From Verrucomicrobiales bacterium (GTDB taxonomy: Bacteria; Verrucomicrobiota; Verrucomicrobiia; Limisphaerales; UBA11320): a DNA stretch of 64,000 bases. This document shows positions 45,731 through 62,220 of the stretch, piece after piece. The notes under the pieces were generated by a model, which was not told the origin of the DNA, ran no database searches, and was given only the letters and a program-made list of their open reading frames with translations. The stretch lies in NCBI GenBank assembly GCA_016793885.1, contig JAEUHE010000183.1, positions 62,001-126,000 of the forward strand, given 5' to 3'. How positions within the stretch are numbered: the first letter of the stretch is position 1; every line of letters begins with the position of its first letter. Both the position numbers and the translations under genes were made by a program.

Positions 45731-48730
45731 ATGCGCAGCGAGAAACCAGTTCCGGCCACGACGCCCGCATGGCATCCAACCGGGTGTCTGTCCCTGCTCG
45801 TCTTTTTTCTCAGCTGGACCGGCTTGGTCACTCCCGGGTCCAGCGGGGCCCAGGCCCAACGCGTGGCTTGGACGAGCTCGCGGGTTCAAGGGTCTCCAGA
45901 ACCACCACCCCTCGCGGTGGCGGAACGAATCCGGCCCGAGGTGAAATTCAAAGATCCCCTTGAGTTGGCTTCAACCCCCTCCCTGCCTCACCTCTTCGTT
46001 CTGGAGCAATCCGGGAAACTGTTCTCCCTCAAGCTATCCGACCCGAGCGCCAAACCGGACCTTGCGTTAGATCTCAAAGCAAAGATTCCCCAGTTCGGAT
46101 CCGCCTACGGATTGAGCTTCCACCCGGGGTTCGCCACCAATCGCCAACTCTTTCTTTGCTACACCCTGAACCGCGATGTGCCAGATGGCACCCGGGTTTC
46201 CCGTTTCAGAGTCACAACGCTCACCCCACCCACTGTCGATCCCGCATCGGAGGAAATCATTCTGACGTTCCCATCCGGCGGGCACAATGGTGGCAGCCTG
46301 CAGTTCGGAGCCGACGGAATGCTCTACATCAGCACCGGCGATCAAGCTTCGCCCAGCCCGCCCGACCCCCTCAACACCGGCCAGGACATCAGTGACCTGC
46401 TGAGCAGCATTTTGCGCATCGATGTCAGCGCATCGGACGGCTCACGCCCCTACCGAATCCCGTCCGACAATCCATTCCTACACACTCCAAACGCCCGTCC
46501 CGAAGTCTGGGCTTACGGACTGCGCAATCCCTGGCGGATGAGTTTTGAGCCTGGCACGTCGGTGCTGTGGGTCGCCGACGTCGGCTGGGAGTTATGGGAG
46601 TCGGTGTTCCGACTTGACCGGCCTGGAATGAACTGCGGCTGGTCAATCCTCGAAGGAAGTCAGAAGGTGCGAACCGACCAGAAGCGCGGTCCGACTCCCC
46701 TAGAAAAACCGATCGTGGCCCACAGTCACGAAGAAGCAGCCTCCATCACAGGCGGCTATTTCTATCGCGGAGAACGCTTGCCCGCGTTGCGGGGCGCCTA
46801 TGTTTACGGCGATTGGGAAACCGGCCGCATGTGGGCACTCCGCCACGATCAGGGGCGGCTCACGGAGCGAGTTGAGATTGCTTCAACCGGACTGAAGCTC
46901 GTTGCTTTTGGAGAGTCAGCTGATCAGGAACTCTACTTTCTCGACTATGTGGGGGGCGGGTTGTATGCGCTTGCTCGCAACCCGGTGGCTCAGTCGAAAG
47001 ATCCCTTCCCAAAGCGACTGAGTGAGACCGGCCTGTTCAGCTCGGTCAAGGACCAGGTCCCGGCCGCGGGTGTTTATGAATTTAATGTCGCCTCTCCGCT
47101 CTGGAACGATGGAGCGACGGCTCGACGATGGATTGGACTTCCGTCGCTGCAGCCGGTTCGTTTCACCACCAGCTATTGGCAGGCGCCACGGGATCTCGTT
47201 CCCACCAACACAGTACTAGCCCGGACCGTCACCATCGAAACCCGTCGATCCGATCCCCAGACGCGCCGACACCTGGAGACCCAGGTGCTCCATTTCAACG
47301 GGCTCGGCTGGAATGCATATACCTATCGGTGGAACGAGGACCAGACCGACGCCGTGCTCGTACCGGCTGCGGGCGCTCAGCAGACCCTATCCATCCAAGG
47401 TGAACGCTTGCCCGCCGGGAAAGAAACCCTGAACTGGCGGCATCACAGCCGCAGTGAATGCCTCCGCTGCCATAATCCCTGGAATGGAACCCTACTGGGA
47501 TTCAATCCATCACAGCTCGCTCGGGCCGTGCCCCCAGCCTCGACCTCGACCTCGACCTCGACCTCGACCTCGACCGAGTTCGATACCGAAGCGAAGCGTC
47601 TGAGCGCGCTGGGACTCATCACGTTGACCGAGCCAATCAAGGCCTCCGCCGTCAACCCGCACGAATCGACCCACGCCCTGCCCGATCGAGCCCGTTCCTA
47701 CCTGCATGCGCAGTGCGGACATTGCCATCGAGACAACGCCGGCGGCGCGGTGCTGGTGAAGCTGAATCTGGAACCGTCGCTTGCAGACCTGAGCCTCGTG
47801 CAAGCCCGACCGGTGCAAGGTCACCTGGGCCTGACCAACGCACCCTTACTCAGTCCAGGCGACCCGCTCAACTCGCTCCTACTCTACCGATTCGCCAAGC
47901 TGGGAAGTTCGCATATGCCGTACCTGGGATCGAGTCTCGTTGACGAGACCGGACTGAACCTGCTCGCTCGTTGGATTCAGGAGATGCCCAGTTCGAACCT
48001 GGTGTCCCATCACCCTCGCCTGCTCTCAGCGGCTCGCGCAGTGCTGCCTCAGCTCGGATCCCCCGGCACCCACTCTCAGGGGCAGTTCGCTGCACTCATC
48101 CAATCGCCCCAGGGAGCACTGGCGCTGCGCCTAGCCATCGCGGAACGGAGCTCGCCCACCGTCCTGGACCAGGGCATCCTCAATTTGGCCCAAAACGCAG
48201 AATCCCCCCTAGTGCGGGATCTGCTTGCCCCGCTTCTCCCCGCGCACGCTCGACGCCAAGTCATTGGAACCGAGCCCGATGTCGAAGCCCTTATCGCTCT
48301 TCCCGGAAGCTCCGAACGCGGCAAGGGACTCTTCTTCTCCTCAGCGGGGCTGCAATGCCAGAATTGTCACACCGCACAGGGCGCCGGAAAAGCGATCGGG
48401 CCTGATCTGAGTCAGGTCGCCAAGAAGTACACTAAAGACCAGATCCTCCGTCATATTTTGGAGCCCAACCTGTTGATCGACCCGGCCTACGCAACCTGGA
48501 CCGCGGAAGCCGCCGACGGGGAAAGCTACACAGGCTGCTTGGTCCAGGAGTCGCCCGACCACATTGTTCTAAAGGACACGACGGGGAGCCTGCACTCGCT
48601 GCCACGCAGCAACGTGCGGAGCCTGCTTAAATCCGGAACGTCGCTGATGCCAGAAGGCTTGTTGAGCCAATCCACTGCCGAGGAAGTAGCCGACTTACTG
48701 GCGTATCTCACTGCACTCCGGGGGGAGTGA
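45731..48730 (+). CDS. PQQ-type sugar dehydrogenase fused to multihaem cytochrome c
   Basis: 999 residues with a signal peptide (CLSLLVFFLSWTGLVTPGSS). Residues about 80-410 are a glucose/sorbosone-type quinoprotein propeller (GLSFHPGFATNRQLFLCYTL, GGHNGGSLQFGADGMLYIST, ELWESVFRLDRPGMNCGWSI). The middle (FPKRLSETGLFSSVKDQVPA, ASPLWNDGATARRWIG) matches SO2930-type dihaem proteins, with CxxCH at about 577 (CLRCH) and 662 (CGHCH). The C-terminal cytochrome domain has CQNCH near 875 and an axial-ligand candidate near MPEGLLS. The protein should oxidise a sugar or alcohol in the periplasm and pass electrons through its haems. The residues needing haem match the CcsBA gene nearby. Confidence 0.85.
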   Translation: MRSEKPVPATTPAWHPTGCLSLLVFFLSWTGLVTPGSSGAQAQRVAWTSSRVQGSPEPPPLAVAERIRPEVKFKDPLELASTPSLPHLFVLEQSGKLFSLKLSDPSAKPDLALDLKAKIPQFGSAYGLSFHPGFATNRQLFLCYTLNRDVPDGTRVSRFRVTTLTPPTVDPASEEIILTFPSGGHNGGSLQFGADGMLYISTGDQASPSPPDPLNTGQDISDLLSSILRIDVSASDGSRPYRIPSDNPFLHTPNARPEVWAYGLRNPWRMSFEPGTSVLWVADVGWELWESVFRLDRPGMNCGWSILEGSQKVRTDQKRGPTPLEKPIVAHSHEEAASITGGYFYRGERLPALRGAYVYGDWETGRMWALRHDQGRLTERVEIASTGLKLVAFGESADQELYFLDYVGGGLYALARNPVAQSKDPFPKRLSETGLFSSVKDQVPAAGVYEFNVASPLWNDGATARRWIGLPSLQPVRFTTSYWQAPRDLVPTNTVLARTVTIETRRSDPQTRRHLETQVLHFNGLGWNAYTYRWNEDQTDAVLVPAAGAQQTLSIQGERLPAGKETLNWRHHSRSECLRCHNPWNGTLLGFNPSQLARAVPPASTSTSTSTSTSTEFDTEAKRLSALGLITLTEPIKASAVNPHESTHALPDRARSYLHAQCGHCHRDNAGGAVLVKLNLEPSLADLSLVQARPVQGHLGLTNAPLLSPGDPLNSLLLYRFAKLGSSHMPYLGSSLVDETGLNLLARWIQEMPSSNLVSHHPRLLSAARAVLPQLGSPGTHSQGQFAALIQSPQGALALRLAIAERSSPTVLDQGILNLAQNAESPLVRDLLAPLLPAHARRQVIGTEPDVEALIALPGSSERGKGLFFSSAGLQCQNCHTAQGAGKAIGPDLSQVAKKYTKDQILRHILEPNLLIDPAYATWTAEAADGESYTGCLVQESPDHIVLKDTTGSLHSLPRSNVRSLLKSGTSLMPEGLLSQSTAEEVADLLAYLTALRGE
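47539..47574. repeat. Six tandem CTCGAC hexamers
   Basis: Exact (CTCGAC)x6 inside the dehydrogenase/cytochrome gene, coding for a Ser-Thr run (SASTSTSTSTSTE). It is in frame, so slippage would change length by two residues per unit without frameshift. Confidence 0.9.
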
Positions 48731-52522: not shown

Positions 52523-54043
52523 ATGGACAAAAGATCAGACCACGATCTGCTGAACGAATTCGCAACGAATCGCTGCGAGGCGGCCTTCGGTGCCTTGGTC
52601 GATCGTCATATTGGCTTGGTCTACTCCGCGGCCCTTCGCCAGGTAAACGATGCGCACCTAGCTGAGGACGTAACTCAGGCAGTCTTTGTCCTGCTGGCCA
52701 GAAAGGCTGGCACCATCCCGAAGAGGTGCATCCTTTCCGGATGGCTCTATCGAACCGCACGGTTCATCGCATGCGACGTAATCAAAAGCGAAGCCCGGCG
52801 GAGAAAGCGCGAGAAGGAAGCCACACAAAGCAGTTCATTGCATTCGGAGCAGGAAGACCAATGGGAGCAGGCTGAACAACAGCTAGATCAAGCGTTGTCA
52901 CGACTGAGCGAAATCGAACGAGCGGCCATATTGTTGCGGTATTTCGAAGCGAAGAGTTTGAACGAAGTCGGGGAGGAGCTTGGCTGTAGTGAAGAAGCTG
53001 CTCGAAAACGCCTGGATCGCGCGATCGAAAAGCTTCGCCGCCATTTCGGAGGCCGAAACGCTCTGACGACAAGCGGTATGGAGCAACTTCTTTCCAGCGC
53101 TCCAGCCCATGACGATTTTCCCGTCGGTCTCACCATTCGAACCTCCACCGCGGCTTTGGCGGATGGGGTCGGGGCGGGGGTGAAAGTGCTCGCTCTGGTC
53201 GAGAGGTCACTGCGGTCCATGTTCCTCACCAAACTCAGGCACATGATAGCGGCCGCGGGTCTCCCGATCGCTCTGCTTTTAGCGATTCATCATTCAGGCC
53301 GCCGCAACATCCCCACAGGCTCCGAGATTATTGGATGGCACCTCGCGCAATCCGGATCCGAATCGCTGAGGAACGAACACAGAAACGAGGCAGCGGGCAC
53401 CTCATGCATGACCTGCCATCGTGGGGATCGCTCCGACCGAGAACCTACAGTCCGTCATATCTACGCGTCTGGAAGTTGGCAAAAACAACTTAGTGGACTA
53501 CAAGGCACTTTCCAACTTCGGCTCGCAGGACCCGACCGTGCGCTGGAATCGATCGAGATTGCCGGCCTTGGTAGCTTTGTTCGAGGACGAAACCGGGATG
53601 CGGCGTGGTCGATCGAGCCCGGCGGATCCGTTCATTGGCTCGCGCCCCTCCAGGCTGAGCAGTTCGAATGGGATACGGATTTCTTGATAGGGTACGAGAA
53701 CGTCAACCGGTCTACTTCGACCAACCAGGATCAAGGGAAAAAAGTCCAGCTCGTGAGCTTCGAGCAAATGAAAGCTTATCGGATTGGGGAGAATCAACAA
53801 GGGGTCGAAACGGCCAATTTCTTTGATTTAGAATCTAAATATCGTGTCGGTTCGGTTTGGGCTCCTTCCCAATGGAGCGTGTTCCAGACCAACATTTTTC
53901 AGCACTATCAACCTTACGACACCATCGCTTTTCCGAGCCGCATTCTCCGCCGCAGAGGCGAGTCAGAAGAGGTCCTGACCATCACGAATTTGATCATCAC
54001 GGACGTCCCCCTTAGAATTTTCAGGCCTCCCACGACACCGTAG
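52523..54043 (+). CDS. ECF sigma factor with transmembrane helix and CxxCH-containing C-terminal domain
   Basis: 506 residues from the ATG at 52523. Sigma region 2 spans about 10-85 (LVDRHIGLVYSAALRQVNDA, LAEDVTQAVFVLLARKAGTI, GWLYRTARFIACDVI) and region 4 about 115-175 (LSEIERAAILLRYFEAKSLN, EVGEELGCSEEAARKRLDRA). A hydrophobic helix at about 240-257 (HMIAAAGLPIALLLAIHH) precedes a C-terminal domain of 250 residues. That domain starts with a CMTCH motif (295-299), a c-type haem attachment signature. Extended ECF factors are common in Verrucomicrobia and Planctomycetes, where the tail acts as the sensor. The gene lies 100 bp upstream of ccsBA. Confidence 0.8.
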   Translation: MDKRSDHDLLNEFATNRCEAAFGALVDRHIGLVYSAALRQVNDAHLAEDVTQAVFVLLARKAGTIPKRCILSGWLYRTARFIACDVIKSEARRRKREKEATQSSSLHSEQEDQWEQAEQQLDQALSRLSEIERAAILLRYFEAKSLNEVGEELGCSEEAARKRLDRAIEKLRRHFGGRNALTTSGMEQLLSSAPAHDDFPVGLTIRTSTAALADGVGAGVKVLALVERSLRSMFLTKLRHMIAAAGLPIALLLAIHHSGRRNIPTGSEIIGWHLAQSGSESLRNEHRNEAAGTSCMTCHRGDRSDREPTVRHIYASGSWQKQLSGLQGTFQLRLAGPDRALESIEIAGLGSFVRGRNRDAAWSIEPGGSVHWLAPLQAEQFEWDTDFLIGYENVNRSTSTNQDQGKKVQLVSFEQMKAYRIGENQQGVETANFFDLESKYRVGSVWAPSQWSVFQTNIFQHYQPYDTIAFPSRILRRRGESEEVLTITNLIITDVPLRIFRPPTTP

Positions 54044-54143
54044 CTAGGCATCCAGGGTTTCCCACAGCGGCTGATCCGTTTCAGAAAGATGCGGAGGGAT
54101 CCCTCATGTCCGCGTACTCCAAATTTCGTTAACCGATTTACTC

Positions 54144-57100
54144 ATGAAAACCTGCATTCGTCTGATCACCTCTCTACGGCTCACGGTGGCATGCCTTATC
54201 GCCGCCATCATCCTTGTGTTTATCGGCACGCTCGCGCAGGTCGAATTGGGGCTCCACGCCACACAAGCCCGATACTTTCAGAGCGTCTTCGTCTATTGGA
54301 CTCCCGAGAGGACACAGTGGAGAATTCCTGTCTGGCCGGGCGGCTGGCTGCTGGGCGGCGTGCTGCTCGTGAATTTGATCGCTGCGCATCTTCAGCGATT
54401 CGAGTGGTCCTGGAGGAAATCCGGAATCGTTCTCATTCATTTCGGGCTCATCGTGCTGCTGATCGGGCAGTTCTTCACCGAGATCTTCCAAGTGGAAAGC
54501 TTCATGGTGATTGAGAATCAGGGACGAAAGAACTTCAGCGAAGACGCACGAAAGCACGAGCTTGCAATTGTAGACGTCACGGATCCCCTCCATAGCACGA
54601 CTGTAGCTATTCCAGAAACTTTCTTGTCCTCCAAAGGTGAGATCAAAGATCCGCAATTGCCCTTCACTCTTCGCGTGAAAGAGTTCTATCGGAATTCTAC
54701 GCCAGTCCTTTTCGATTCGCAGGCAAATGGAAAGAGGTTCGCTGCAAACCAGGGGTTTGGACAGAGGATGGGTCTGGAAGAGCGGGCTACCACCGCGAAA
54801 ATGAATGACGAAAACAAACCAGCGGCCTTGGTGGAAGTGATTGCAGCCAACCAGCCCTTGGGCGAGTGGTCGGTTTCTACTTGGCTGACTAAAAACGGCT
54901 ACAAGGACCGGCTACGCGACTTTCAGATCGAGCGAGGCATGCCCATGGACTCCTTGGCCGACCAACCGCAGCAATTCACCCACGCCGGCCGAACCTACAC
55001 GATCTCATTGCGCCCGGTGCGTTACTACAAATCCTATTCCATCGAACTCATTCAGTTCACTCATGCGCGTTACCAGGGCACGGATATCCCGAAAGACTAT
55101 TCCAGTCGCATTCACCTCCGAAACGAGCGAACGCAGGAAGAGCGTGAAGTGTTGATCTCCATGAACAACCCATTGCGCTACGGCGGCGAAACGTACTATC
55201 AAGCGGGGTTCCTGGAGAAAGATGCCGGAACCATCCTCCAGGTGGTACGGAACCCGGCTTGGCTGGCTCCCTATTCCTCCTGCATCGTGGTGGGTCTGGG
55301 ATTGTTGATCCACTTTTCTATACATTTTTTCAAGTTCCTGAAGGAATCGCCGAGCCGGCGAACGGCTCCGGTTAAAAGAGGAGACGTCCCAAGCTCTGTT
55401 CCGTCTCCTTTGGAGGATTCGAGTACTGCAGTGGGCGTAGGTGGAGTCTTAAGTCCGAAGCGGGGCATTCCATCAGAAACAAAGTTTTCGTGGCTTCTGG
55501 CAGCGGCGTTCGCGATGTGGATTCTTTTCAGCCTGCGGCCGACTAAGAATCTCACGGAGTTCAAACTGGACGAATTTGGACGCTTACCAATCCTGGCCAA
55601 TGGTCGCATCCAGCCCTTAGATTCATTCGCACGTAACACACTTCTCAGCATCCACGGAACCCAGACAGTCCGGCCTGCGACCCATGATCCGTCGCAAACA
55701 AGGGTTCTTTCCGCTCGCGAGTGGCTGCTGGAAGTGATGGCTGATGCGAAGAAGGCAGACAACCGTCGGATTTTTCGGATCGAGAGCCTGGACTTGCGCA
55801 ACCTGCTGGGTGCTCAGGAAGGCCGACTAGGGCAGCTTGCTTACACCGAGTTAGCTCCCAAACGTGATCAGATTCTTAAAGAGGCTCGCCAACTGCTCAA
55901 GATAGAGGAGGAGAAGGGGCGAGAACCGCAGCTTCGTAACGCCTACGAAAAAGATCTCATGCACCTGTATCAAGGGATGATCATCTATGATCGCCTCAAG
56001 AACGCCATTCAACCAGCCGACAGCCGGGACTTTCAGGGGGAGTTAAAGGTCTTTCGAGAGACAATTCCTCCCGCCCTCACCGCAGTGCAGGAACATCAGG
56101 CCGGAAATCTCGCGATCGCGACGAACGGGAGTATTGCCCTCCTAAGTCTGTTCATGAATCGGTATCAGAATATGACTCTCTGGGGCCTTCCCATGCTGGC
56201 GCCGCCACTGGAGGTTGATTCCAACCGGGAGGGATGGAGCAACATCGGCACAAACCTGCTGCTCGCAATGCGATCAGGCAGGTTTCATCCGGCGATCGAC
56301 TACTATGCCGCGATAGCCACATCCTGGCGTGCAGATAAGCCTGCCGATTTCAACAAGGCGGTCAGCGACTATCAAGGATGGCTGGTGCAGCGCGGTCTCG
56401 GTTCCGAGATGAGCAAGAGTAAGGCGGAGTTTCTCTTCAATCATCTAGAGCCCTTCTACAAAGCGACGCTCATGTATGTCGCCGCCCTGCTTCTCGGCGC
56501 GGCGTTCTGGTTGAACTTTTCCCCGTGGTTGCGCAAGTCGGCTTACAGCCTGGTGATACTCGCCTTTGCGCTACACACGATCGGCCTGATTTTTCGAATG
56601 TGGCTGGAAGGCCGTCCTCCGGTGACGAATCTCTACTCTTCGGCGGTGTTCGTCGGATGGGGTGCAGTGTTCCTGGGAATTATTCTGGAGCGTCTCTACC
56701 CTGAGGGCATCGGTCTGGTGACAGCGTCGTGCGTTGGTTTCATGACGCTGATCATTGCGCACAATCTTGCGGGCGGTGGTGACACGCTGGAGATGATGCG
56801 GGCGGTGCTGGACACGAACGTCTGGCTGGCCACCCACGTTGTGATCATCAATATCGGTTATGCCGCGACGTCCCTCGCCGGGTTCCTTGGAATCATTTAC
56901 ATCGCGCGCGGGATTTTCACTCGCTCGCTGAGCCAACCAAGGGCAAAAAGGCTCGCTCGTATGGTGTATGGCACGGTTTGCTTCGCGACACTGTTCACGT
57001 TTGTGGGCACTGTTCTTGGTGGCTTGTGGGCTGATCAATCCTGGGGACGCTTCTGGGGCTGGGATCCGAAAGAGAACGGCGCGTTACTGATCGTTCTCGC

Positions 57101-57407
57101 CAACGCCACGCTGCTGCACATGCGCTGGGGTGGAATGATTCGAGAACGTGGTATGATGTCCGCCGCCATCTTCGGCAATATCGTCACGGCGTGGTCTTGG
57201 TTCGGCACCAACATGCTCGGCGTGGGGCTCCATTCTTACGGATTCATGGACAAGGGCTTCCAGTGGTTGGTGTTGTTCGTCGCGTCACAAGGCGTGTTCA
57301 TGCTGCTGGCCCTGACGCCGCTCCGCCACTGGCGAAGCCTCCTATCGGAGTCCACCGATGCTGCCAAAACCGTTCCTCCTGATGAATCCGCCACAGGTGG
57401 CATTTGA
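54144..57407 (+). CDS. ccsBA: Fused cytochrome c synthase CcsBA (ResB-ResC)
   Basis: 1087 residues. The N-terminal half is ResB/CcsB-like: transmembrane helices at about 10-30 (LTVACLIAAIILVFIGTLAQ), 65-85 and 95-115 (VLIHFGLIVLLIGQFFT), a large periplasmic domain (MVIENQGRKNFSEDARKHEL, NPLRYGGETYYQAGF), and a helix near 375. The C-terminal half is CcsA, with helices from about 770 and the haem-binding WWD segment GLWADQSWGRFWGWDPKENG near 958-977. Conserved histidines lie in NVWLATHVVIINIGY and GVGLHSYGF. System II synthases carry haem across the membrane and attach it to CxxCH sites. It can serve the cytochrome-type genes in this window. Confidence 0.92.
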   Translation: MKTCIRLITSLRLTVACLIAAIILVFIGTLAQVELGLHATQARYFQSVFVYWTPERTQWRIPVWPGGWLLGGVLLVNLIAAHLQRFEWSWRKSGIVLIHFGLIVLLIGQFFTEIFQVESFMVIENQGRKNFSEDARKHELAIVDVTDPLHSTTVAIPETFLSSKGEIKDPQLPFTLRVKEFYRNSTPVLFDSQANGKRFAANQGFGQRMGLEERATTAKMNDENKPAALVEVIAANQPLGEWSVSTWLTKNGYKDRLRDFQIERGMPMDSLADQPQQFTHAGRTYTISLRPVRYYKSYSIELIQFTHARYQGTDIPKDYSSRIHLRNERTQEEREVLISMNNPLRYGGETYYQAGFLEKDAGTILQVVRNPAWLAPYSSCIVVGLGLLIHFSIHFFKFLKESPSRRTAPVKRGDVPSSVPSPLEDSSTAVGVGGVLSPKRGIPSETKFSWLLAAAFAMWILFSLRPTKNLTEFKLDEFGRLPILANGRIQPLDSFARNTLLSIHGTQTVRPATHDPSQTRVLSAREWLLEVMADAKKADNRRIFRIESLDLRNLLGAQEGRLGQLAYTELAPKRDQILKEARQLLKIEEEKGREPQLRNAYEKDLMHLYQGMIIYDRLKNAIQPADSRDFQGELKVFRETIPPALTAVQEHQAGNLAIATNGSIALLSLFMNRYQNMTLWGLPMLAPPLEVDSNREGWSNIGTNLLLAMRSGRFHPAIDYYAAIATSWRADKPADFNKAVSDYQGWLVQRGLGSEMSKSKAEFLFNHLEPFYKATLMYVAALLLGAAFWLNFSPWLRKSAYSLVILAFALHTIGLIFRMWLEGRPPVTNLYSSAVFVGWGAVFLGIILERLYPEGIGLVTASCVGFMTLIIAHNLAGGGDTLEMMRAVLDTNVWLATHVVIINIGYAATSLAGFLGIIYIARGIFTRSLSQPRAKRLARMVYGTVCFATLFTFVGTVLGGLWADQSWGRFWGWDPKENGALLIVLANATLLHMRWGGMIRERGMMSAAIFGNIVTAWSWFGTNMLGVGLHSYGFMDKGFQWLVLFVASQGVFMLLALTPLRHWRSLLSESTDAAKTVPPDESATGGI

Positions 57408-57506: not shown

Positions 57507-58805
57507 TCAGCCAAAACGGCGCTTGAGGCGGGCGACGTCGTAGGCGCAGCGCTGCACCGACGTCATGGATGCGAAATCAGGGGCGCCGCTCGCTAACACA
57601 GGCCACGCCGGAGCAGCGGCGGTAACCGCTGTGGCGGCTTCAGGCTTCGAGGCGGGCTGAGAGGAAACAGCGGGCGAAGCTGGCTTGGCGGCCAGCGGAT
57701 TGTTCTGGATCAGAACACTCCCACGATTCCCACCACTGCCGTAGCTCATGGCCTGATCGGTGAGTTCCAAATCCTTCTCCAGCGCGAGCCGCGGCTTGAT
57801 GCCCTTGCCCTGCAGAACGCCATGATACGCGCGCACTGCCTCCTCGGGACTCACTCGTCCGTCGGTAATCAGTCGCAGCATTTCAATAAACGCCAACTGA
57901 TGCTCCGCGTTGTTGATCTTGCGACCGAACAACGCGACCCGCGCGCCATACTTCTGCGCGTCGTGGATCAGCTTGAAGGCATCGTAAGTGGTCCCAGCGC
58001 TTCCGCCCAAAATGCCGACCACTAAATTCGGATCATACTGCGCCAGCTCCTCCATCAGCCGAGGACCGTGGTAGACGATTTTGAGGAACTGCGGCCGCCC
58101 CGCCTCGGTAACCCCGGCGAGAATGCGCAGAATGTTATCGTTGATGAACTCGCCCAGCTTTTCGGGAGCGATCTGGCTATTGACGTTCGGATCAAAGACC
58201 TCCAGAAAATACCGGAACTTCTTCCGTTCCGCCTCTTCACGAAACGCTTTAAACGCCTCGAGAGTGGCGCGATCCTGCTCGAGCTCGTTCACAAAAGTGA
58301 CCGAGTAGAGACCAAGATTCGCACCCGGAAACTCCTCGTTCTCGCGATCGCATTCCACCTGACCGCATTGGATATGGTCGATCGTCGCGCTGCGAAACGG
58401 CTGCGCCGGCTGCTTGATGTAGCTGCCATGACGAACGGCCCAGACATCCGTCGTGTCGTTAGCGCGCGCGGCCGGAGTCACCGGAGAATTGCCGAACAAC
58501 CCTTCCTTGATGGCCAGCTGTTCCGTCACCGAGGCGGACATCAGCATAATATCCACTAACTTCTGGCTGACCACCTCGCGGATAATATCCAAAAACTCAA
58601 CCAGGTTTCGGTGCCCAAATTCATCCCGAGTCCAAACTTCGGGCGAGAATTGAGCCGGACGAGCACCCGCGGAGGAGAGGTAGCCACGCGGCCCTGGAGC
58701 GCGCACGCCGAACGCCATATCGGCGTCCTTCGCATCTGCGATGATGAAGGAGCGAGAGCGCGGATTCCCGCGAATCTCAGCCAACTTGGAGTCCAGGGAT
58801 TTCAT
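57507..58805 (-). CDS. BMC-associated TIM-barrel aldolase-like protein with C-terminal encapsulation peptide
   Basis: 432 residues from the ATG at 58805 (MKSLDSKLAEIRGNPRSRSF). Residues 1-350 read as a TIM barrel resembling class I/LacD-type aldolases (KLVDIMLMSASVTEQLAIKE, KKFRYFLEVFDPNVNSQIAP, FLKIVYHGPRLMEELAQYDP, LVVGILGGSAGTTYDAFKLI). The catalytic lysine is not assigned with confidence (candidate FLKIVYHG). After an Ala/Pro/Ser linker (about 365-405), the tail DFASMTSVQRCAYDVARLKR forms an amphipathic helix typical of encapsulation peptides. It is the last gene of the BMC operon. The reaction is unproven; deoxy-sugar phosphate cleavage or isomerisation is possible. Confidence 0.65.
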   Translation of the reverse strand: MKSLDSKLAEIRGNPRSRSFIIADAKDADMAFGVRAPGPRGYLSSAGARPAQFSPEVWTRDEFGHRNLVEFLDIIREVVSQKLVDIMLMSASVTEQLAIKEGLFGNSPVTPAARANDTTDVWAVRHGSYIKQPAQPFRSATIDHIQCGQVECDRENEEFPGANLGLYSVTFVNELEQDRATLEAFKAFREEAERKKFRYFLEVFDPNVNSQIAPEKLGEFINDNILRILAGVTEAGRPQFLKIVYHGPRLMEELAQYDPNLVVGILGGSAGTTYDAFKLIHDAQKYGARVALFGRKINNAEHQLAFIEMLRLITDGRVSPEEAVRAYHGVLQGKGIKPRLALEKDLELTDQAMSYGSGGNRGSVLIQNNPLAAKPASPAVSSQPASKPEAATAVTAAAPAWPVLASGAPDFASMTSVQRCAYDVARLKRRFG

Positions 58806-58840
58806 GTGAGAGAGTTCGCCTGAGCGACAGGACCCGATTT

Positions 58841-58958
58841 CAAATTGTTCATTGCACATTGCTCATTTTTCATTGGGGAAAAGCGAAAACAGCGCCCGCT
58901 GCGCTCGGGGAATCATCCCAAATGTGCAATGTGAAATGAACAATGAACAATGTGCAAT
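58841..58958. repeat. A/T-rich inverted repeats of the CAATGTGCAAT type
   Basis: Between the two aldolase genes, AATTGTTCATTGCACATTG (58843-58861) pairs with the CAATGAACAATGTGCAAT sequence at 58941-58958 and with AATGTGCAATGTGAAATG at 58921. This looks like a dispersed intergenic repeat and may form mRNA hairpins between the genes. Confidence 0.55.
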
Positions 58959-58974
58959 CCGGGTTCAGTGGAGC

Positions 58975-60072
58975 CTAGGAGCGTCCGCCGCCCAGAATCT
59001 GGTCGGTGATCGCCTTGACCAACGCTTCCGCTTGAGGATCCAAAGCGCCGGAGGTTTCCGACTTCGCCGGAACGGCGCAGGTGATGCCCGGGCGCCACTC
59101 GGCATTGTCGCACAGCTCACATTCCTTCAAGCCCAGACGGGGGTCGGGAATTCCCAGGCTCTGTTTGATCTTCAGTAGATCCTGGAGTTGCTTCGGGGTC
59201 ATGGTCTGCGGCGGCTTGCCCAACTGGGCCGCGACCAGGATGGTGCGGCAATAAGCCTCCAAGATCTCCATCTTGAAGTAGGCATCCTCCACGGTCAGAT
59301 GGCTCCAGGATACGACACCATGATTGGCCATCAGGATGGTGTTGTGCTTGTCCACCAGATCCGCGACGAGCTGCCCCATCTCGGGGGTTCCCGGCGTGCG
59401 ATACGGAGCAATCGCCACCGAGGAGAACACCTCATACTCGGGAATCATGCAGGTCGGAGGTTCGATGCCGGCAACAGCAAACCCAGTGCTGTAAGGCGGA
59501 TGACAATGAACCGTGGCAGCTGCCCGAGGCTGACGCTTCATGATCTGCAAGTGCATCAGAATTTCGCTGGTGCGCTTCTTCACCCCGGCGAGCTGATTGC
59601 CTTCGAAATCCACCAGGCACATGTCGGCCGGCTGCATGAACCCCTTGCTGACCAGAGTCGGGGTGCACAGCGCGATGTCCTCGCCCACCCGAATGGCGAT
59701 GTTGCCACCGTTCCCATCGACATAGGCCCGGCCCCACAGACGGCGGCCGATATCACAAATCTGCTCCTTCAGATTGTGCATGTAAGGAGAGTTGAAGAAC
59801 GCTTCCAACTCAGCCTTGGAGCTCTTGGAGCTCAACGGCTTCGCCGGAGCCGCCGTCGCCGTCGCCGTCGCGGGCGCAGCCGGGGAGGACGACCCGCCAG
59901 TGGACCGCCGACCCGAGCTGAGCTCGCGGAGGATGTCCTTGGCCGACGGGGTCAGAATGGCATCAGACGGCAGGCTTTTGGGATCACCACCTTTGGCGAT
60001 CAGCTCTTCGATATCCTTCGCAGTAATGACAGCGGGCATAAATTCAGTGCGGTTATTCGTCGCTTCAGTCAC
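58975..60072 (-). CDS. Class II aldolase (fuculose/rhamnulose-1-phosphate type) with N-terminal encapsulation peptide
   Basis: 365 residues from a GTG at 60072; an ATG at 60039 (MPAVITAKDIEELIAKGGDP) is an equally likely start. That N-terminal helix followed by a Ser/Ala/Pro/Thr linker (about 55-85) looks like an encapsulation peptide. The aldolase/adducin domain follows: IGRRLWGRAYVDGNGGNIAI, PADMCLVDFEGNQ, zinc ligands ATVHCHPPYSTGF and MANHGVVSWSHLTVEDAYFK, and catalytic Glu candidate in IPEYEVFS. In PVM-type BMCs this enzyme splits L-fuculose-1-phosphate and L-rhamnulose-1-phosphate into dihydroxyacetone phosphate and lactaldehyde. Confidence 0.85.
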   Translation of the reverse strand: MTEATNNRTEFMPAVITAKDIEELIAKGGDPKSLPSDAILTPSAKDILRELSSGRRSTGGSSSPAAPATATATAAPAKPLSSKSSKAELEAFFNSPYMHNLKEQICDIGRRLWGRAYVDGNGGNIAIRVGEDIALCTPTLVSKGFMQPADMCLVDFEGNQLAGVKKRTSEILMHLQIMKRQPRAAATVHCHPPYSTGFAVAGIEPPTCMIPEYEVFSSVAIAPYRTPGTPEMGQLVADLVDKHNTILMANHGVVSWSHLTVEDAYFKMEILEAYCRTILVAAQLGKPPQTMTPKQLQDLLKIKQSLGIPDPRLGLKECELCDNAEWRPGITCAVPAKSETSGALDPQAEALVKAITDQILGGGRS

Positions 60073-60092
60073 TCATCGCAACCCCACGAGGG

Positions 60093-60395
60093 TCACGACT
60101 TCGGGTTATAAAAAATGGTGTCTACCAGAGCCACATTGATGGCATCGATCGGCGGCGCCTGATCGAAAGGCTGAGCCGCCTCGCGCCCTTCCACAAAACC
60201 GATGGTGTCACCCACCCCGCCGCCGAGGTTGTCATACACCACCAGGCTGGGCTCTTTGCTCACCCCGCCAATCGGAGTGGGGCCTTGCTGAAAATGTTCT
60301 CGGCTGAACGGGCTCACGACCAACCAGCGCGCTCCCGTCAACTCGGGAACCACCACGCTCAACGTCACCCGTCCAATCACGCTTCCCAGCCTCAT
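60093..60395 (-). CDS. BMC-P pentameric vertex protein (EutN/CcmL family), copy 1
   Basis: 100 residues from the ATG at 60395 (MRLGSVIGRVTLSVVVPELT). The EutN/CcmL fold is shown by GARWLVVSPF, SLVVYDNLGGGVGDTIGFVE and the C-terminal INVALVDTIFYNPKS. BMC-P pentamers cap the vertices of the protein shell. The ATG lies within the end of the previous gene (4-bp ATGA overlap), so the two BMC-P genes are translationally coupled. Confidence 0.9.
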   Translation of the reverse strand: MRLGSVIGRVTLSVVVPELTGARWLVVSPFSREHFQQGPTPIGGVSKEPSLVVYDNLGGGVGDTIGFVEGREAAQPFDQAPPIDAINVALVDTIFYNPKS

Positions 60396-60688
60396 TCCAA
60401 CGAGTCCTCCAGAGCTGTGGTGCCCGGCGACACTTCGTCGACCACGCCCACGATAATCCATCGGACCGGACTCTTCGGATCGCCGACCGCCAACCGAGCG
60501 GCCGAGCCATCGCTCGAAATAATCACACGTTGATGCATGCCGGCACCGAGGGAGTCGATCGCCACCTGAGGCACACCCTCGGGCGCGCCCTGTTGCGAGA
60601 TCGGCTGGCAGATCACCAGTCGCCAACCCTCGAAGCTCGGGTGCTTTCGGGTGGCGGTCAGGCTGCCTTCGACGCGCGCAAGATACAT
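60392..60688 (-). CDS. BMC-P pentameric vertex protein (EutN/CcmL family), copy 2
   Basis: 98 residues (MYLARVEGSLTATRKHPSFE). It has the characteristic EutN pattern: GWRLVICQPI, QVAIDSLGAGMHQRVIISSD, GSAARLAVGD and the IIVGVVDEV end. Different BMC-P paralogues in one shell are typical of PVM-type BMCs, which usually have three. Confidence 0.92.
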   Translation of the reverse strand: MYLARVEGSLTATRKHPSFEGWRLVICQPISQQGAPEGVPQVAIDSLGAGMHQRVIISSDGSAARLAVGDPKSPVRWIIVGVVDEVSPGTTALEDSLE

Positions 60689-60717
60689 GTCAGTTCAAGT
60701 CGGCTCCGATCCAACGG

Positions 60718-62220
60718 TCAATAGATCCGCAGATTATCCACCATGACACAGCGGCGCACCCGGGTGAACGTCTTCGGGTTGGTGACACCTTCGCCTGTCG
60801 GGGTTGCAATCGAGTAGCTCAAGTAGCCTTCGCCACCCAGCCCCAGACCCGCCATACACGGCCCGTTCTTCACAAAGATCGTGGTGTCGAGCGCCCGAGC
60901 CATCGCGGTCATGTGCTCGACGTCGTGCGAGTGGATGATCGCCGTGTGCTTGTAATTGTGCTCGGCCAGCTTGGAAGCAACGATGCCTTCCTCGATGTCC
61001 CGGACGCGGACCACGGGGATGAAGGGCATCATCTGCTCCTCTTTGACGAACGGATGATTCGCATCGGTTTCAGCAAACAGCAGCTGCGTGTTGGCCGGCA
61101 CCGTGACTCCCGCGAACTTGGCGAGAACGGCAACATCTTTACCAATCAGATCCTTGTTGACCACAGGCTCAGCGCATCCGCCGCCGTGGCCTTCCTTGAA
61201 GGTAAACGCCGCCTTCGTCAGAGCCTCGAGCTGGCTCGCGTTGAGCTTCACCGCTCCAGCGGTGCTCATGGCATCCATGAACTTGGTGAAGGTGTCACCT
61301 ACAACAAACACTTCCTTCTCGCCAATGCAGAGCAGGTTGTTGTCGTAACTGGCGCCTTTGATCACCGACTCGGCGGCGCGCTTCATGCAAGCGCTGCCAT
61401 CCACCAGCACCGGCGGGTTGCCCGGACCGGCACAGATGGCCCGCTTGCCGGTCTGCATGGCAGCCTTCACGACGCCGGGTCCGCCCGTGACCAACAGCAG
61501 TCGGACCTGGTCGTTGGCACAAAGGGCTTTGAAGGAGTCGAAGGTGGGCTGCTCGATAATGCAGGCGATGTTCTCAATCCCGGTCTCGCGATAGATCGCC
61601 TCATTATAAGCGCGAACCGCCATAGCGGCGCAACGCGCGGCCGTGGGATGGGCGTTGAACACGACCGAGTTTCCCGCGGCCACAATGTTCACGATATTGC
61701 CGCTCAGCGTCGGAATCGAATGGGTCGACGGGGTCACCGCGCCAACGACACCAAAGGGAGTGTATTCTTCATGGGTGATGCCATGGTCGCCGCTGAGCGC
61801 GTCGGGACGGATCCACTCCACCCCCGGGACCAGCTTGATGATCTGCAGCTTCTCGATTTTGTGATCCAGGCGGCCGATCTTGGTCTCCTCCAGCTCGATG
61901 CGACCCCAGTCCTGCGCGTTGGCCTCGGCGAGGCGCTTGACGATGTCGACGATCTTGCGGCGGGCTTCCATCCCTTTCTTTTGCAGCTGGAGGAAGGCCT
62001 CTTGCGCCGCCAGGCAGGCCTCGCCGGCGTCCTGGAAAACGCCGAACTTGCCGCGAAAGCCTGATGCGGCCGACGTCGCCGTCTTGCCGCCGCAGCCACA
62101 CGCGTGATCGGAGCCCTTGGCCGCGGGAGCGGGGGCGGCGACGGTAGCGCCAGAGGTTCCCAAGCGGCTGAGCACCTCAGCCACCACATCACGGATCAGA
62201 GTCTCATTAATCGCAGCCAT
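60718..62220 (-). CDS. CoA-acylating aldehyde dehydrogenase (PduP/EutE-like) with N-terminal encapsulation peptide
   Basis: 500 residues. The N-terminal 18 residues (MAAINETLIRDVVAEVLSRL) form an amphipathic helix followed by an Ala/Pro linker, the standard encapsulation peptide. A short CGCGG-type cysteine cluster (ACGCGGKTA) lies near 40. The catalytic domain has TPSTHSIPTLSGNIVNIVAA, KRAICAGPGNPPVLVDGSAC, catalytic Cys in YDNNLLCIGEKEVF near 298, and FKEGHGGGCAEPVVNK. It converts lactaldehyde or propionaldehyde plus CoA and NAD+ into acyl-CoA inside the shell. In this operon the substrate is probably lactaldehyde (inference). Confidence 0.92.
   Translation of the reverse strand: MAAINETLIRDVVAEVLSRLGTSGATVAAPAPAAKGSDHACGCGGKTATSAASGFRGKFGVFQDAGEACLAAQEAFLQLQKKGMEARRKIVDIVKRLAEANAQDWGRIELEETKIGRLDHKIEKLQIIKLVPGVEWIRPDALSGDHGITHEEYTPFGVVGAVTPSTHSIPTLSGNIVNIVAAGNSVVFNAHPTAARCAAMAVRAYNEAIYRETGIENIACIIEQPTFDSFKALCANDQVRLLLVTGGPGVVKAAMQTGKRAICAGPGNPPVLVDGSACMKRAAESVIKGASYDNNLLCIGEKEVFVVGDTFTKFMDAMSTAGAVKLNASQLEALTKAAFTFKEGHGGGCAEPVVNKDLIGKDVAVLAKFAGVTVPANTQLLFAETDANHPFVKEEQMMPFIPVVRVRDIEEGIVASKLAEHNYKHTAIIHSHDVEHMTAMARALDTTIFVKNGPCMAGLGLGGEGYLSYSIATPTGEGVTNPKTFTRVRRCVMVDNLRIY

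Follow-up and report, generated by a model that had tools for sequence, protein, structure and literature searches.

A predicted ECF sigma factor with a putative membrane segment, a LolA-like C-terminal domain and a CxxCH insert, encoded beside ccsBA in a Verrucomicrobiales bacterium

Results and discussion

In the window, by which we mean the whole 64,000-nucleotide stretch of a Verrucomicrobiales contig that was analysed, one gene appears to unite an ECF sigma factor, a putative membrane segment and a LolA-like C-terminal domain in a single polypeptide. We propose that its product is a one-chain membrane-tethered ECF sigma factor with a LolA-like extracytoplasmic sensor, which would be released by proteolysis, and we give this proposal about an even chance of being correct.

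Layout of the sigma gene

The gene (52523..54043, plus strand) starts with the ATG at 52523, ends at 54043 and encodes 506 aa, as delimited by its open reading frame and by Pfam and NCBIfam. Sigma region 2 (aa 25-93; 52595..52801, plus strand; PF04542) is followed by sigma region 4 (aa 119-172; 52877..53038, plus strand; PF04545 and PF08281). Both regions, together with TIGR02937, exceed their cut-offs, and neither Pfam nor NCBIfam gave a match to region 3; the protein thus has the composition that marks ECF sigma factors, namely regions 2 and 4 without region 3. The same two libraries gave no match to an anti-sigma or zinc-finger domain in this protein. A putative transmembrane segment (aa 238-256; 53234..53290, plus strand) leads to the LolA-like domain (aa 256-506, 251 aa; 53288..54040, plus strand), which was recognised by alignments, an AlphaFold model and structure matches and has no Pfam or NCBIfam match of its own. 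The layout read earlier from the letters, in which a sigma factor runs on past region 4 into a hydrophobic segment and a domain with a CMTCH motif and is followed by a cytochrome c synthase, is confirmed by the open reading frames and domain matches. Sigma-70-type promoter-like sites numbered 3 against 0.7 expected, none of them informative, and the only plus-strand terminator-like site at the locus lies inside the sigma gene.

A modular family of sigma factors

Relatives of the sigma half (aa 1-255) occur in 40 of the 58 sampled genomes of the order, with at most 17 per genome and mostly 36-50% identity. We extracted 121 of them, so that the set including the window protein holds 122 sequences, 115 of which are complete. 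Matches to Pfam and NCBIfam in 64 C-terminal parts comprised CarboxypepD_reg, Big_1, secretin-like, TIGR03435/DUF3738, RCC1, HEAT, TPR and HAF, mostly extracytoplasmic types; the LolA-like domain was found in none of the 121 relatives. The paralogues in the genome of the window likewise bear extensions that differ from that of the window protein. Since the sigma half and, mostly, a comparable putative segment are shared while the C-terminal domains differ among relatives and paralogues, the window gene belongs, to judge from these alignments, to a modular family of putatively membrane-linked sigma factors whose presumed sensors are exchangeable.

In this order of the Verrucomicrobiota, ECF sigma factors that carry a putative membrane segment have expanded greatly and bear swapped C-terminal domains, which is of interest by itself. 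A review of non-canonical ECF sigma factors, in which Verrucomicrobia go unmentioned, describes the membrane-fused groups IutY, ECF48, ECF52 and ECF53 (PMC8999054), and so large a family with so many swapped sensor domains appears to be little described in the literature examined.

Membrane segment and topology

The putative transmembrane segment, assigned from its hydropathy, comparable segments in the family and alignment, is of moderate hydrophobicity (Kyte-Doolittle mean 1.6), and another hydrophobic stretch lies at aa 208-226 (1.43). A segment above 1.6 follows aa 175 in 99 of the 122 family members, window included, and many relatives of the sigma half contain a hydrophobic stretch around aa 183-206. 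These features would suit a hairpin of two hydrophobic stretches, which would leave the C-terminal domain in the cytoplasm and its motif out of the reach of CcsBA. However, basic residues lie on the N-terminal side of aa 238-256, the relatives of the LolA-like domain appear to be exported, and the C-terminal domains of the siblings are mostly of extracytoplasmic types, and we consider the hairpin very improbable. Because the sigma domain has to act in the cytoplasm, basic residues precede the segment and the domain relatives are exported, the most likely place of the C-terminal domain is outside the inner membrane, to which it would tether the predicted sigma factor. The original prediction of a membrane-linked sigma factor with a sensor-type domain thus draws support from the exported domain relatives and the extracytoplasmic sibling domains, while its further claim, haem-based sensing, does not.

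The C-terminal domain resembles LolA and LolB

The AlphaFold model of the C-terminal domain, built on 23 sequences, has a pLDDT of 85.5 and a pTM of 0.83, and contains the half-barrel fold and the N-terminal helices of the LolA/LolB-like superfamily. It is matched best by structures of LolA, LolB and other lipoprotein carriers related to them: 3buu was matched with a Foldseek E value of 5e-8, 3bk5 and the Porphyromonas LolB 9tpm each with Z 16.1, and the E. coli LolB 1iwm with Z 13.5. RseB and MucB appear in the same list well below LolA and LolB, with Z about 6, and the RseB alignment covers only the first domain of RseB. On the strength of this model, the C-terminal domain is predicted to be LolA/LolB-like.

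A profile of the domain matched 62 of the 320 genomes searched in the order and 49 of a phylum-wide sample of 388 genomes; a single copy is present in the genome of the window, none was found in four further genomes of the same genus, and a genome_contigs scan with the C-terminal domain itself found no relatives. The relatives in the order are distant, with about 20-27% identity across the greater part of the domain, and are stand-alone proteins of about 270-300 aa with signal-peptide-like N-termini. Named relatives come from Verrucomicrobia and Pedosphaera genomes and from Bacteroidota, and comparison of the relatives with DUF620, DUF4412 and LolA_like gave weak scores. The Bacteroidota relatives are the C-terminal parts of exported proteins that resemble M16 peptidases, the peptidase being assigned by eye. 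Among all relatives examined, the fusion of this domain to a sigma factor was seen in the window only, that is, in one genome, and searches of the own genome, the genus and the order returned no close homologue of the whole fusion.

A CxxCH motif in an insert absent from the examined relatives

The CMTCH motif (aa 295-299; 53405..53419, plus strand) was originally placed at the beginning of the domain; it is in fact found in a 24-aa insert (53378..53449, plus strand) that comes after the N-terminal helices. The insert, HRNEAAGTSCMTCHRGDRSDREPT, has no counterpart in the examined relatives, whose helices and sheet the domain otherwise retains, and the model shows it as a lower-confidence loop that joins the second helix to the first strand. 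The two cysteines of the motif are the only ones in the C-terminal domain. A CxxCH arises in shuffled versions of the domain with a P value of about 3e-4, a value to be read with the fact that the motif was picked out of the whole window; taking the protein alone, its occurrence by chance is unlikely.

Conservation of the motif in homologues had been named as a check. None of the 121 sigma-half relatives has a CxxCH, nor is there one in the 37,952 residues that these relatives have beyond aa 265. The motif is likewise absent from the LolA-like relatives examined in the order, genome_contigs and phylum searches, a set read individually that leaves aside about twenty lower-scoring order hits and most phylum hits. 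As no CxxCH occurs in the examined homologues, the outcome that the original prediction had itself named as speaking against it has largely come about. The structure matches revealed no cytochrome c fold, the motif-bearing domain being modelled as LolA-like instead, although a small cytochrome-like loop is conceivable. Some acidobacterial cytochromes of the reaction-centre type may combine a CxxCHRG motif with a similar domain, which we do not count as evidence here; a PF02276 search gave no match in the own genome, but it gave none in the control genomes either.

The neighbouring cytochrome c synthase gene

The start of ccsBA lies 100 bp beyond the sigma stop codon, on the same strand. It encodes a fused ResB-CcsA (CcsBA) cytochrome c synthase of 1087 aa (54144..57407, plus strand; PF05140 and PF01578), which retains the WWD motif and the histidine columns that are invariant among its relatives and is accordingly taken to be intact. 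This is the second copy in the genome, the other being a split resB/ccsA pair on contig C42. The pairs of relatives that we inspected are split as well, as opposed to the fused gene of the window. The C42 pair is preceded by a 369-aa gene, possibly for a lipoprotein and without a Pfam match. In most of the inspected genomes, resB-ccsA is preceded by a gene for a protein of about 370 aa that has a (C)xxxIxVYxVPKE-like N-terminus and may act as an unnamed partner in cytochrome c maturation; in the window, the sigma gene takes the place of this gene before ccsBA.

The closest match to the window ccsBA is found in a genome of another family (G043; ResB 70%, CcsA 78-79%), where resB and ccsA are split and are preceded by a PadR regulator and, farther upstream, a Ser/Thr kinase, with no sigma gene beside them. 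Neighbours matching the window sigma protein were also absent from 18 further inspected ccsBA loci. The pairing of sigma gene and ccsBA is therefore not conserved. Downstream of ccsBA in G043 we observed a redoxin-like CxxCH protein, interrupted by the contig end (L195:14143-15514).

Alternatively, the protein may be a LolA/RseB-type sensor of lipid or envelope state that carries no haem, its CxxCH being incidental or serving as a disulphide or metal site and the adjacency to ccsBA being coincidental. The LolA-like fold and relatives agree with such a sensor, as do the lack of conservation of both motif and gene adjacency and the fact that the fusion was read in one genome only. On the other hand, the motif is complete with its histidine, sits in a dedicated insert and is rare by shuffling, and the adjoining gene encodes exactly the enzyme that recognises CxxCH. 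We regard a haem-free sensor as a serious possibility, somewhat short of an even chance.

Proposed mechanism and the question of haem

The working of the protein that we infer, in its topology, tethering, proteolytic release, ligand and haem, would amount to a merger of sigma-E, RseA and RseB into one polypeptide. The extension at its own C-terminus would hold the ECF sigma factor at the inner membrane, while the LolA-like domain outside the membrane would read an envelope signal, possibly a lipid or a lipoprotein bound in its cavity. Cleavage outside and then inside the membrane would free the sigma part to direct transcription. The gained CMTCH loop could be loaded with haem c by CcsBA, and the loaded haem might modulate the same switch. 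The genome encodes a site-2 protease homologue; in IutY, a fused sigma factor is freed by Prc and RseP (PMC8999054), and the LolA-like domain of MucB senses lipid (PMC7400510). It should be noted that the membrane segment is weak, that no anti-sigma or zinc-finger domain was detected, that RseB and MucB score well below LolA and LolB and that the fusion was seen in a single genome, all of which count against this explanation.

CXXCH peptides of 9-20 residues are substrates for haem attachment by CcsBA, which requires both thiols and the histidine (PMC8112865). Since such short peptides are loaded, covalent haem on an exposed loop is plausible, and whether the CMTCH loop receives haem is, in our estimate, close to a coin toss; that an attached haem would have a regulatory role is unlikely. 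The original prediction went further, in that the domain would bear covalent haem c from the neighbouring CcsBA and the haem state would control a sigma factor that regulates cytochrome c maturation. The insert with the CMTCH motif belongs to a domain that is presumed to be extracytoplasmic and has no other cysteines, an intact CcsBA is encoded just downstream on the same strand, this CcsBA is a second copy, and the peptide loading described above would suit such a loop. Against this stand the absence of CxxCH from the 121 sigma-half relatives and the examined LolA-like relatives, the absence of a sigma gene from the closest ccsBA and the 18 further loci, and the lack of a cytochrome fold in the domain. 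With neither the motif nor the adjacency to ccsBA conserved, a sigma factor that reports cytochrome maturation to transcription is left without comparative support, and we consider this haem-controlled switch improbable. It is similarly doubtful that covalent haem c makes sigma activity a direct readout of haem supply, cytochrome maturation capacity or redox state.

Comparison with known systems

As in our proposal for the window protein, the RseA-RseB and MucA-MucB systems, which govern sigma-E and AlgU, tie a LolA-like extracytoplasmic domain to ECF sigma control via a membrane segment. They do so with separate proteins, whereas the window encodes one chain in which no RseA-like anti-sigma domain was detected; moreover, RseB and MucB are separate periplasmic proteins with a second, C-terminal domain, in contrast to the single, fused 251-aa domain described here. 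IutY (ECF243), ECF48, ECF52 and ECF53 combine a sigma factor, a membrane segment and an outer domain, the arrangement predicted for the window protein, and have no separate anti-sigma factor (PMC8999054). However, IutY contains a fused anti-sigma factor and the ECF52 type a zinc finger, neither of which was detected in the window protein, and the outer domain of the latter is LolA-like. Judged by its predicted domains, the window protein falls outside the IutY/ECF52 type, because no anti-sigma or zinc-finger domain was detected, and outside RseB/MucB, because its single domain is fused to the sigma factor. It shares a predicted fold and sequence relatives with the LolA/LolB/LppX superfamily, from which it differs by the sigma fusion and the CxxCH insert. 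By analogy, it may work like the RseA/RseB module; it would then be a one-chain membrane-tethered sigma sensor on the RseB fold, whereas E. coli RseB requires partner proteins.

Some membrane sensors, DcrA and GSU0935 for example, carry c-type haem in a PAS-like domain. The window protein resembles them in having a CxxCH in a presumed extracytoplasmic sensor, but its output would be a sigma factor, its domain has neither a PAS nor a cytochrome fold, and its haem is putative. We know of no sigma factor with covalent haem, and if the haem is real, this would to our knowledge be the first.

Other genes of the window

Only one further protein from the main frames of the window contains CxxCH: the product of 45731-48730, which resembles glucose/sorbosone dehydrogenases and has three such motifs and a cytochrome c domain. 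The minus strand at 57507-62220 carries class II aldolase-like and aldehyde dehydrogenase-like genes, assigned by eye, and looks like a sugar or aldehyde degradation locus, possibly that of a bacterial microcompartment.
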